From Arcicella rosea (GTDB lineage: Bacteria > Bacteroidota > Bacteroidia > Cytophagales > Spirosomataceae): a stretch of 64,000 bases of DNA. The stretch is from positions 1 through 64,000 of the forward strand of contig NZ_JACHKT010000020.1 in assembly GCF_014204325.1 (NCBI RefSeq), written 5' to 3'. Numbering within the stretch: position 1 is the stretch's first letter; each line of letters begins with the position of its first letter. This document shows, in pieces, positions 21,270 through 63,718 of this stretch. A program made the position numbers and the translations under genes. The notes under the pieces were generated by a model that saw only the letters and a program-made list of their open reading frames with translations, made no database searches and was not told the origin of the DNA.

Positions 21270-21353
21270 TTGCTAAAATAAGGTAATCAACTACTTCAAA
21301 GCAAATGCCAAATCCTGCCCGCTATATATTAGCCATCGTAAAGTAAATATTCT

Positions 21354-21761
21354 CTCCTGCACTGACGGGATAAGCAACTGCATTTATACTATTAGCTCCT
21401 TCACTGACGGGATAAGCGACTGCATTTATACTATTGCCTCCTGCACTGACGGGATAGGCGACTGCATTTATACTATTGCTTCCTCGTAAAGTAAATATTC
21501 TCTCCTGTACTGACGGGATAGGCGACTGCATTTATACTATTAGCTCCTGCACTGTCGGGATAAGCGACTGCATTGATACTATTAGCTCCTGCACTAACGG
21601 GATAAGCGACTGCATTTATTATACTATTAGCTCCTGCACTGTCGGGATAAGCGACTGCATTGATACTATTAGCTCCTGCACTAACGGGATAAGCGACTGC
21701 ATTTATACTATTAGCTCCTGCATGGACGGGATAAGCTATCGCATTGTCGGGATAGCTTATC
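21354..21761. repeat. 42-nt minisatellite (8 full units plus a degenerate one) with terminal hairpin
   Basis: Units of 42 nt begin CTCCTGCACTGACGGGATAA and end CTGCATTTATACTATTAG. Starts: 21354, 21396, 21438, 21502, 21544, 21586 (45 nt), 21631, 21673 and a diverged one at 21715. Units 5+6 and 7+8 are a duplicated pair (GTCGGG form then AACGGG form). A further segment CGTAAAGTAAATATTCTCTC at 21338 recurs at 21484. Hence at least two duplication events are visible. The last part has an 11-bp inverted repeat (21730-21740 with 21751-21761) that may terminate the convergent genes. Both strands stay open for short stretches because 42 is divisible by 3; I do not call a gene. Confidence 0.92.
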
Positions 21762-21784
21762 GCATCGGTAATTTTGGGTTTTGT

Positions 21785-60403: not shown

Positions 60404-61294
60404 TCAATTGTTAGAAAATTTACTCTTTTTAAGCAAGGGATATAGTAAAACGGAAGCCAAAATAATAAATGTTCCTGCATAAAAACCTGTTGTCATCTGT
60501 TCTTTTTCTCCGAAAATTAAATAGGCTAAAATGATACCGTAAACGGGTTCGAGGTTTAAAGTAAGATTGAACGTAAAGGCTGAAAATTTCCGAATCAATT
60601 CTACTCCTTCGGCAAAAGCATATACTGTGCAAACAAAAGCTAAAATCATTATCCAAAGCCAATCTAAACCTTGAGGTATGATTTTGAGATTGGCACTTCC
60701 TTCAAAAAATAAATACAGAACTGGTACAAAAGTAAAAATGGTAGCACCCATCATCTCATAAAAAGTAATGATTTGTGGACTATGTTTTGTCGCAAATCTG
60801 GAATTGATTACGGAGAAAAGGGCACTCAGAAAAGCAGAGAATATCCCGACGAATAAACCCATGATATGATTTACTTCAAACAAAAATATCAAGTATAATC
60901 CTACAATCACCATCAAGCCCAAACCAACTTCTATGATTCTGATTTTTCTTTTGTCCCAAATGGGTTCTAGTAAACTTGTCCACAATGAACCTGTTGAAAA
61001 ACCTGCTAAACAAATGGCTACGGTCGATATTTTGGCAGCATAAAAAAATGTAAACCAATGCAAAGCGATAATTCCGCCTGTTGCCAATAATTGCCAAGTA
61101 GCTTTGGTAGAAACTTTGATGGAAACGTTTTTCAAATATAAATAAATAAACAAACCACCCGAAGCCAGCAGTGTTCTGAAAAAGACAACACTTAAAGAAT
61201 GTGCAGAAATTAATGCTCCTAAAATAGCCGTAAATCCAGCGATGAGTACAACTAAATGGAGTTGGATGTAATCTTTTATATTGTTTGTTTTCAT
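60404..61294 (-). CDS. EamA/DMT-superfamily transporter
   Basis: A ten-helix drug/metabolite-type transporter of about 296 residues, two EamA repeats (about 10-135 and 150-290). The short N-terminal segment MKTNNIKDYIQLHLVVLIAG fits the family, so I choose ATG 61294; the longer reading (61315) begins inside a dispersed repeat. The substrate is unknown. The 48-bp repeat (61313-61360) lies just upstream. Confidence 0.9.
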   Translation of the reverse strand: MKTNNIKDYIQLHLVVLIAGFTAILGALISAHSLSVVFFRTLLASGGLFIYLYLKNVSIKVSTKATWQLLATGGIIALHWFTFFYAAKISTVAICLAGFSTGSLWTSLLEPIWDKRKIRIIEVGLGLMVIVGLYLIFLFEVNHIMGLFVGIFSAFLSALFSVINSRFATKHSPQIITFYEMMGATIFTFVPVLYLFFEGSANLKIIPQGLDWLWIMILAFVCTVYAFAEGVELIRKFSAFTFNLTLNLEPVYGIILAYLIFGEKEQMTTGFYAGTFIILASVLLYPLLKKSKFSNN

Positions 61295-61312
61295 GAAATA
61301 AGTATTTGAAAG

Positions 61313-61360
61313 CATTTAGTCAAACCTATAAGGATTTATGTAATTATCTAATAATGAAAA
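61313..61360. repeat. 48-bp dispersed repeat, copy 2
   Basis: It matches 18914-18961 at 45 of 48 positions, starting CATTTAGTCAAACCTATAAG and ending TCTAATAATGAAAA. It sits 18 nt upstream of the EamA gene start, in the same orientation relative to the gene as copy 1 has to the YdeI-like gene. The inverse arm present in copy 1 is degenerate here. Confidence 0.8.
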
Positions 61361-61388: not shown

Positions 61389-62468
61389 CTACCTCGGCAC
61401 GGTATAATATAGAATAACACCAATACCTGTAAAAACTAAATTCGGTAACCACACGGCTAGGAGCGGAGGCATTCCGCCAGATTGTGCAATACCTTTACTC
61501 ATCATAAAGAATAGAATATACAGAAAGGCTAACATAAAGCCTAAAGCAATTTGAAAACCTACACCGCCTCTTGATTTACGAGCAGAAACAATGACACCAA
61601 TAACGCTCAGAATAATTACAGCAAATGGATTGGCAAAACGTAAGTATTTCTCAATCAGAAAAATCTCAATACCATCTGCACCACGACTTCTAATTTGATT
61701 AATCGTTGCTTCTAGTTCAGAATTGGTGAGCGTTTCGTGAATTTGATAAGTACTTTCAAAATCTTTGGGAAGTAAATTGAGTGTTGTATCAATTTTTGTT
61801 CCGTAGGTTAATTTTTGTTTGCCATTAGGTAAGAAAGTTCTCACTCGGTAATCAAAAATCGACCATTTTCTTCTGGTAGAATCCCAAGTGATATGGTCTG
61901 CAAGTAATTTGGTCTTTAATTCATGTCCTTCAATTTTATCTAAAGAAAATTTATAACCCGTTTGTGAACCTGTATCGTAGCTTTCCATATAGGCATAATC
62001 GTGCGGGCCAATTTTGATATGCACATCTCTACCACTATAATAATAAGAACCTACTACGTACTTTCTTTCAAAGGCAATTCGAGTTTTATTGGCATTAGGA
62101 ATTACCCAACCAACCATAAAAAAAGTAAGTACTCCGATGATAGAAGAAGCAATAATATAAGGACGAATAAAACGAGTAAAGCTTACTCCAGTACTCAGAA
62201 TCGCAATGATTTCGGTGCGTGCAGCTAAATTGGCGGTAAAGAAAACCGTAGCAATAAACACCATCAGCGGACTAATATAATTAGCCCAATAAGGAATAAA
62301 ATTGAGGTAATAGTCAAAAAGAACAGCGTGAACAGAAGCTTTATTATCAATAAAATTGTCGATTTTTTCGGTATAATCAATCACCATAATGATAGAGACG
62401 ATGATTAACACGGCGAAAAAATACGTTGTAAGAAATTTTTTAATGATGTATAAATCGAGAATTTTCAT
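61389..62468 (-). CDS. LptF/LptG-family LPS export permease
   Basis: The inner-membrane permease of the Lpt system that extracts lipopolysaccharide from the membrane. From ATG 62468 (MKILDLYIIKKFLTTYF) it has 359 residues, six helices, with a large periplasmic beta-jellyroll between helices 3 and 4 (about 135-265). Hallmarks: YIIKKFLTTYFFAVLIIVSI at the start, ISPLMVFIATVFFTANLAARTEIIAI, and SARKSRGGVGFQIALGFMLAF. Bacteroidota commonly have two unlinked paralogues of this family; which one this is cannot be told. Confidence 0.93.
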   Translation of the reverse strand: MKILDLYIIKKFLTTYFFAVLIIVSIIMVIDYTEKIDNFIDNKASVHAVLFDYYLNFIPYWANYISPLMVFIATVFFTANLAARTEIIAILSTGVSFTRFIRPYIIASSIIGVLTFFMVGWVIPNANKTRIAFERKYVVGSYYYSGRDVHIKIGPHDYAYMESYDTGSQTGYKFSLDKIEGHELKTKLLADHITWDSTRRKWSIFDYRVRTFLPNGKQKLTYGTKIDTTLNLLPKDFESTYQIHETLTNSELEATINQIRSRGADGIEIFLIEKYLRFANPFAVIILSVIGVIVSARKSRGGVGFQIALGFMLAFLYILFFMMSKGIAQSGGMPPLLAVWLPNLVFTGIGVILYYTVPR

Positions 62469-62680
62469 TTTTCTGTAAGTCACAATAGCGACAACCGCAG
62501 CTATTCAAATCATAATATTTTACAAAGCTACGAATAAAAAAAAACTCTCAGGTTTGAAGTATCCATTTGCAGGATTAAAAATTGTTAATAAGCACTCAAT
62601 GAAGGAATCAAGGCAGAGTCAGGGAATAAGTAATTGCTTTTTTTAATTGTGCGGTATTCTTCGCTTTTATACGGGAAATT

Positions 62681-62888
62681 GCGTGAAAAAGATGGGCGAA
62701 CCTATCTCCGAGATAGGATGCCCTATCTTTTTCACGCAAAAAACCGCAAAAAAGATAGGACAAGCTATGATTTAGATAGCTCCACCTATCTAAATCATAG
62801 CTTGTCCTATCAAAAAGACGCATTGACCTATCTAAAAGATAGCTTGACCAATCTTTAAGATAGGTTTTCCCGTCTTTTTGATAGGAAG
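62681..62888. repeat. 21-nt palindromic tandem array with nested inverted repeats
   Basis: At least six 21-nt units run from 62763 to 62888 (62763, 62784, 62805, 62826, 62847, 62868), the core being CTATCT-n3/5-AGATAG, so most units can fold alone. On top lie larger palindromes: 62681-62693 with 62725-62737 (13 bp, with inner hairpin 62701-62717), a perfect 26-bp pair 62754-62779 with 62786-62811 (6-nt loop), and 62806-62820 with 62871-62885 (15 bp). The 557-nt gap 62484-63040 otherwise shows nothing. Short open frames on both strands (heptad TYLKDSL) follow from the 21-nt period and are not called genes. Confidence 0.9.
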
Positions 62889-63040
62889 AGGAGTAAATAA
62901 GATAATTGCCTCATCTTATAGCATTTACGAAAAAATTAACCGAATAATAAGTTTTTTGGAAGTAAATGGCTGATTGTCTTTAATGGTTTACGTCGTAGAG
63001 CATATATTTATACTATCAAACTTAAATATTTGTGAACTAG

Positions 63041-63718
63041 ATGATTGATACAAATCAGGAAATAATTGATAAGAATATTCTTGAAATTGCTAAGGTAGCT
63101 TACAAGTTACCAGGAGTAGTTGTATTGCACGACCTACGTGATTGGTCAGTTGCTTGGATGTCGCCAAGAGGACTTGACGAGCTTGGTGTAACTTTAGAAG
63201 AAATTACCAGTTTACCTTCGGAAGAGTATTATTACCGTTATTTCAATCCAGAAGATGCTAAAGATTATGCTCCCAAAGTGTTGAGTTTGATGGAGCGAAA
63301 TATTGCTGATGAAATTTGTACTTGTTTTCAGCAGGTGCGTTTTGGGATTAATGCTCCTTGGAAATGGCACATGGCAAGTACAATGGTTTTTGCCCGTGAT
63401 GAACAAGGAAATCCGCTATTAGCTATTACAATAGCCTTTCCAATCGACACCATGCACCACATGACTTTTAAAGCAGAGCGATTGTTAGAAGAGAATAATT
63501 TTCTGCGAAACAACATTCAGCTATTTTCAAGCCTTAGTAAACGTGAATGCGAAATATTAAAATTACTGGCAATGGGTATGAGTTCTGTTGATACTGCTGA
63601 ACAATTATTTATTTCGGTAGGAACGGTTGAAACACATCGGAAAAACATCAAGAAAAAACTCAATACTAATTCCTACTTTGAGCTTTGCCAGTTTGCAAGG
63701 GCATTTAACTTAATTTAA
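63041..63718 (+). CDS. LuxR-type transcriptional regulator with PAS-like N-terminus
   Basis: A 225-residue regulator. The N-terminal part (about 20-130) looks like a PAS sensor (VVLHDLRDWSVAWMSPRGLD... GNPLLAITIAFPIDT). The C-terminal 60 residues are a canonical GerE/LuxR HTH: LSKRECEILKLLAMGMSSVD, then SVGTVETHRKNIKKKLN. There is no receiver domain, so it is not a standard response regulator. The ligand is unknown. The promoter side (62.9-63.04 kb) shares TTAACCGaATAATAAGTTTTT with the region at 63.87 kb near the window end. Confidence 0.9.
   Translation: MIDTNQEIIDKNILEIAKVAYKLPGVVVLHDLRDWSVAWMSPRGLDELGVTLEEITSLPSEEYYYRYFNPEDAKDYAPKVLSLMERNIADEICTCFQQVRFGINAPWKWHMASTMVFARDEQGNPLLAITIAFPIDTMHHMTFKAERLLEENNFLRNNIQLFSSLSKRECEILKLLAMGMSSVDTAEQLFISVGTVETHRKNIKKKLNTNSYFELCQFARAFNLI

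Follow-up and report, generated by a model that had tools for sequence, protein, structure and literature searches.

Plasmid iterons are repeats of about 20–22 bp with a spacing of two helical turns, located next to the gene whose product binds them, and the sopC site of the F plasmid lies just 3' of sopB. The sopC site comprises twelve repeats of 43 bp, which contain 16-bp inverted repeats (PMC6238139). BrickBuilt of Porphyromonas gingivalis is a minisatellite inside a miniature inverted-repeat transposable element (MITE), composed of a leader, 23-nt repeats and a tail in 19 intergenic copies, with IS5-type terminal inverted repeats (TIRs; GAGACCTTTGCA), some target duplications and no BLASTn match outside P. 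gingivalis (PMC4596501). The repetitive extragenic palindromes with their associated tyrosine transposases (REP/RAYT) are defined by a conserved GTAG/GTGG-type tetranucleotide at the palindrome foot (PMC2817692, PMC6006769). We here compare with these systems an intergenic array of 21-nt palindromic units at 62681–62905 of a 64,000-nt stretch of Arcicella rosea DNA (assembly GCF_014204325.1, contig NZ_JACHKT010000020.1, positions 1 to 64,000), hereafter the window, from a genome of 5.3 Mb (G000). Judged from sequence, the arrays and a family of ~155-aa proteins look like parts of one undescribed system. We hold it evenly balanced whether the array in the window belongs, as a solo copy, to a dispersed family of DNA sites that form the cis part of a two-part unit with that protein, the filament-binding mechanism included.

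Structure of the array in the window

The initial annotation had described at least six 21-nt units with superimposed 26-bp and 15-bp inverted repeats. The array is indeed real and proved to be larger, with 10–11 units in one register, and both inverted repeats were located at the positions given below.

62681..62905, no strand assigned: array of 10–11 21-nt units (each a 15-nt core and a 6-nt spacer) that share a single register, with unit starts at 62681, 62702, 62723 ... 62891
62648..62701, + strand: type A leader (TGTGCGGTATTCTTCGCTTTTATACGGGAAATTGCGTGAAAAAGATGG... in the window copy), common to 8 other arrays of the genome (alignment A1, column conservation)
62679..62739, no strand assigned: hairpin 1, with 15-bp arms TTGCGTGAAAAAGAT (62679–62693) and ATCTTTTTCACGCAA (62725–62739) around the self-dyad CTATCTCCGAGATAG (62702–62716)
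62754..62811, no strand assigned: 26-bp perfect inverted repeat with a 6-nt loop, arms 62754–62779 and 62786–62811
62828..62884, no strand assigned: last full units CTATCTAAAAGATAG, CAATCTTTAAGATAG and CCGTCTTTTTGATAG, with the tail decaying from ~62884 on

The repeat unit consists of the 15-nt dyad CTATCTnnnAGATAG plus 6 nt, and its register is unbroken over the whole array. Two units match this dyad in full, one carries one mismatch and two carry two mismatches, while the remaining units hold a single half-site or are paired with another unit. In total, nine CTATCTnnnAGATAG-type matches were found in the window against a shuffled mean of 2.5, with none of 100 shuffles reaching nine, and the in-register dyad symmetry (0.56 versus 0.42) was above all 200 column-permuted controls. 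CTATC and GATAG half-sites follow each other in turn at intervals of 10 and 11 bp, which is one helical turn, and occupy a single face of the DNA; Tandem Repeats Finder (TRF) reported a period of 21 at 62774–62863.

A conserved 54-nt leader precedes the array and places the start of the element at ~62648. The homology between type A copies begins at the leader TTTGCGG, and their flanks are unrelated (alignment A1, column conservation). Since the 26-bp and 15-bp inverted repeats join whole units, they follow the 21-nt register. Hairpin 1 is kept in all type A arrays and is reinforced by the leader, in which TTTGCGGTTTT pairs with AAAACCGCAAA. The 26-bp perfect repeat occurs only in the window copy, the other type A copies differing there, and is most readily taken as a secondary event, perhaps a templated correction.

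Dispersal in the genome and its relatives

A BLAST search of the window array against its own genome gave many matches, and the pattern CCTATCTnnnnGATAG, with at most one mismatch, yielded 71 forward matches genome-wide versus 7 for the reversed control. Once set in register, the matches resolved into ~20 arrays with three leader types: type A with nine arrays including the window copy (leader TTTGCGGTTTTCTTC...TACGGGAAATTGCGTGAAAAAGATGG), type B with six (TTTGGTTTT...AAAACCAAACGAATC) and type C with four. The arrays are intergenic and lie in either orientation, in tandem, divergent and convergent gaps, with no fixed relation to the neighbouring genes. Copies within types A and B are mostly 75–94% alike, and the 36 type A pairs showed 9 gap events versus 1609 substitutions, the 21-bp spacing being almost indel-free.

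Among 297 relatives examined by pattern search, the same arrays were present in G070 and G008, for which the pattern gave 30 and 2 forward and 20 and 1 reverse matches, respectively, and G295, which belongs to another family, contains eleven 21-nt units of CTATCTTTTATATAGGAAATC; the same-genus genomes gave no such arrays in this search. An array absent from relatives and not repeated elsewhere, which the initial annotation had equated with a local accident, is thus not what the search for the unit returned. A pattern scan of a genome-contig collection gave chance single matches, apart from the Cytophagales metagenome-assembled genome JAAFJE01, and none of the 27 stretches found by pattern scan in viral contigs was an array under a 5-unit dyad detector.

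One array, located between a SusD and an ASPIC-type gene, is common to G000, G008 and G070, with differences of 8%, 10% and 15%. In the adjoining genes, the difference at four-fold sites is mostly 20–34% (13% in one short gene pair), and in the upstream flank of the array it is 22–30%. This slower change is evidence that the shared array is under constraint, rather than proof, because the downstream flank of the G008–G070 pair is more alike than the array itself.

The window also contains another intergenic array of different sequence (CTCCTGCACTGACGGGATAAG / CGACTGCATTTATACTATTAG) at 21336–21765, which has a period of 42 (2 × 21), sits in the gap that separates a 170-aa gene from a convergent TonB-type receptor gene, and may represent another class of the same kind. 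A third array class, with a period of 42, the dyad CATTTAGTGAAATG and a dyad excess z of 2.5, was observed at L258:8331-8648 (G000:C45).

The linked protein family

A connection with a protein family whose genes are followed by 21/22-bp arrays was not foreseen in the initial annotation. Genes of a ~155-aa protein family adjoin arrays in G295 and one array in G000, where the C30 family gene lies at G000:C30:18519-18980, and the family genes beside CTATCT-type arrays are those of G000 (C30), G070 (C24) and G295 (C416). When eight genomes were searched, the family was found in the three array-rich ones and not in the other five, with only G070 as an independent positive, since the other two supplied the query. 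A class-wide search detected the family in 37 of 395 genomes. Profile searches against Pfam, NCBIfam, PADLOC, PHROGs and PDB gave nothing convincing for it, and it had no match in plasmid, phage or viral-contig collections.

At 29 loci outside G000 that were selected solely by the protein, the 600 nt following the gene peaked at lags of 21, 42, 63, 84, 105 and 126 (robust z 7–12), with no lag peak in the 5' flank or 600–1400 nt beyond downstream. For 52 distinct members, the best fundamental period in the 500 nt downstream was 21 in 39 cases and 22 in 5 (44/52), versus a period of 21 or 22 in 15/51 upstream (Fisher p 1e-8). TRF likewise found periods in multiples of 21 at 12/30 family loci versus 4/65 control loci (6/67 before two loci fetched by the array pattern were removed). 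The gene-linked arrays have a median of 10 units and start a median of 82 nt past the stop codon; their sequences vary from locus to locus, dyad symmetry over permuted controls was found in 20 of 37, and 22/43-nt arrays are confined to two protein clades. A solo array found within 400 kb of G100 has the half-site GAAGGTAC in common with the gene-linked array of the same genome. Furthermore, a contig of Nostoc punctiforme NIES-2108, fetched through an unrelated pattern match, encodes a family member (L098:3142-3615) with a 13-unit 21-nt array (2033–2326) 840 nt downstream. In the literature on 21/22-bp arrays in Bacteroidota, no description of such an array and protein pairing was found.

Two side observations concern these loci. 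The Nostoc family gene and its array are separated by a gene that may resemble DUF559 proteins, and a 42-nt array of other sequence (L342:1106-1375, G000:C38) lies directly 3' of a second G000 family member.

In the mechanism that we propose, each array would present ~ten imperfect dyads, exactly two helical turns apart and with all half-sites on one DNA face, as the cis part, and the other part would be the probably helical ~155-aa protein encoded directly beside some arrays. We infer that this protein, or a partner, would bind the dyads cooperatively and assemble into a phased nucleoprotein filament like that of SopB on sopC, that the solo arrays would have spread as further sites seeded genome-wide at junctions of conserved backbone and lineage-specific DNA, like BrickBuilt or REP elements, and that neighbouring genes may be affected. 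Among the candidates that the initial annotation had offered, the protein-binding array fits best because of the strict 21-bp register, the half-sites 10/11 bp apart, the dyad units and the lack of RNA-type covariation. The structured RNA is disfavoured, and slippage alone is insufficient because it leaves the conserved leaders and the dispersal unexplained. More tentatively, a widespread two-part system could exist in Bacteroidota and at least one cyanobacterium, in which the ~155-aa family builds phased filaments on its own 21-/22-bp dyad array and on solo arrays, the array sequence being free while the two-turn period and dyads are kept, with a possible role in DNA organisation or in the marking of insulated or foreign regions; we lean somewhat against a system of this breadth.

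Several observations weigh against the phased-filament proposal. Pfam/NCBIfam searches gave no recognisable DNA-binding domain in the family, the proteins carry a net charge from near zero to negative, which makes it less likely that they bind DNA directly, and an AlphaFold model of the Nostoc member alone, made with no alignment, reached a predicted local distance difference test score (pLDDT) of 46 and was not used. The window array has no family gene beside it, the link running through sister arrays, and in the CTATCT subfamily (G000 C30, G070 C24) the array is 5' of the gene, not 3'. In addition, G008 has one CTATCT-type array, with no family gene found in the search, about half of the gene-linked arrays are without dyad excess, and a 400-kb stretch of G105 gave no solo arrays.

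Flanking genes, rival explanations and known systems

The window array is flanked by the following genes.

61389..62483, − strand: LptF/LptG-type permease gene (Pfam PF03739), on the leader side
60404–61315: EamA-type gene, syntenic with the permease gene in same-genus genomes
63041..63718, + strand: LuxR/GerE-type regulator gene (Pfam PF00196), on the tail side

Among 60 other genomes from the family, none gave a homologue of the regulator at E<=1e-30. The array-distal neighbour was syntenic in same-genus genomes at 5/6 anchor genes with a checkable other neighbour, versus 0/8 arrays for the gene across the array (Fisher p 0.003). Because the anchors were selected on the conserved side, the contrast is only suggestive that the arrays sit where conserved backbone meets lineage-specific DNA. 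Homology to relatives ends 20–135 nt ahead of the element. Two same-orientation array pairs, one enclosing a type ISP restriction-modification gene together with an IS200-like gene (G000:C22:36825-42340) and the other a C5 methylase gene (G000:C30:17961-23970), may be borders of defence cargo. We also observed that type A arrays adjoin PD-(D/E)XK (Rpn-like, PF12784) genes at L254:10889-11836 and L255:8657-9526, and that two type C arrays, 99% identical over the compared region, flank one 388-aa gene without a Pfam match (L044, G000:C12:33080-35110), a pair that looks like a recent duplication or cassette.

The layout of leader, array and decaying tail, the dispersal to synteny breakpoints, the pairs around the accessory genes in C22 and C30 and the near-identical arrays in C12 would also suit non-autonomous mobile elements, in which an unrelated transposase moves a BrickBuilt-like leader and minisatellite, with the 21-bp period an expansion by-product and the protein a passenger. 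However, terminal inverted repeats were not found, including any IS5-type TIR of BrickBuilt within 2 mismatches (15 arrays), no empty site with a target duplication was found, and movement is not recent since the copies are mostly 75–94% alike. This explanation, which we consider unlikely, also leaves unexplained the gene–array association with its constant 21/22 period and variable sequence. An origin by slippage and palindrome correction, as a local accident with no function, is very improbable and is contradicted for the array as a whole by the ~20 related arrays with common leaders, their presence in other genera, their paucity of indels and, at one locus, a conservation stronger than that of four-fold sites. 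The extra 26-bp repeat may be such an accident and could stem from templated quasi-palindrome correction in the window copy.

The arrays could alternatively act as RNA, their hairpin-chain transcripts serving as small RNAs, as stabilisers of 3' untranslated regions or as an RNA that partners the protein, like the repeat RNA of a type III toxin-antitoxin system. The window array indeed folds very stably (z −17 on the + and −15 on the − strand), the gene-linked arrays begin a median of 82 nt from the stop codon, and the C16 array, situated between SusD and the gene that follows, is in the sense orientation. Nevertheless, we regard this as improbable: the half-sites inside a unit show no covariation or compensatory changes, and chimeric arrays, assembled from the units of different copies, fold no less well than the real arrays, which argues for DNA sites rather than an RNA fold. 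Moreover, solo arrays occur in both orientations, including divergent and convergent gaps, and Rfam gave only sub-threshold microRNA-like hairpin matches, none at or near the gathering score. Translated heptad repeats (21 nt = 7 codons) are scarcely credible. Both strands of the window array carry open frames of 71–74 aa, but several copies have stops in the best frame, the copies lack a codon-position pattern, and the 22-nt or 43-nt arrays at some family loci shift the frame, which already contradicts this idea.

The exclusion of a terminator, a REP doublet (REPIN) and clustered regularly interspaced short palindromic repeats (CRISPR) in the initial annotation was borne out by the AT-rich multi-dyad array, the absence of a GTAG/GTGG foot and the degenerate, contiguous units. 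The 225-nt array of AT-rich dyads lies in both orientations relative to genes and is not a single GC-rich hairpin with a T run. The CRISPR-like spacers would be 6 nt long and recurrent, not unique, and no cas genes were seen among the array neighbours examined, in a search that was not exhaustive. The unit foot in the type A, B and C consensus is CTATCT/CCATCT, and none of six Y1_Tnp genes is an HUH Y1 transposase gene flanked by palindromes. IS200/RAYT was also rejected as the mobiliser, with one of these six genes near an array (type B, 300 nt) and the other five without an array alongside. The BrickBuilt layout of leader, short tandem repeats and tail, dispersed and intergenic, is present, and the leader end is without a terminal inverted repeat. 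A sopC-like layout, with a dyad array beside the gene of the putative binding protein, is seen for the family and, among the CTATCT arrays, at C30, G070 C24 and G295 C416; as for ParB–parS, no ParB fold or ParA partner was found (no Pfam/NCBIfam family match, structure model too poor).

An odd palindrome array thereby becomes a testable system. If the family truly accompanies its own two-turn-phased array in many genera, a DNA-organising, partition-like or selfish module would be possible. Annotation pipelines would miss such a module, since no family model covers the protein and they take the array for short spurious open reading frames. The pairing may also give a handle on BrickBuilt-like minisatellite elements of Bacteroidota.

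Finally, we compared the proposed system with the described ones. It is like iterons in repeat length, two-turn spacing and the adjoining gene, but it is chromosomal and dispersed, has dyadic units and no Rep domain, and its family is without a match in the plasmid collection. Like REPs, bacterial interspersed mosaic elements and REPINs with their RAYT (TnpA-REP), it comprises dispersed intergenic palindromes with a system gene beside some copies, one array lying 300 nt from the IS200-like Y1 gene; it differs in the fixed 21-nt register, in a linked family that is not an HUH transposase and in the lack of a GTAG/GTGG foot in leader or cores. BrickBuilt, from the same phylum, is likewise intergenic, with a leader, variable-number tandem repeats, a tail, strong predicted stem-loops and some loci at rearrangements, whereas the 21-bp dyads and the linked protein family are particular to the arrays described here, in which TIRs and target duplications were not found. 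SopB–sopC is similar in that its tandem repeats each hold a short inverted repeat and are spaced at nearly an integral number of helical turns, but here the ~20 dispersed arrays are chromosomal, the period is 21 or 22 bp instead of 43 bp, a ParA and a ParB domain were not found, and binding is predicted only. The tested defining features of both SopB–sopC and BrickBuilt fail here, and the system resembles the former in layout and the latter in dispersal.
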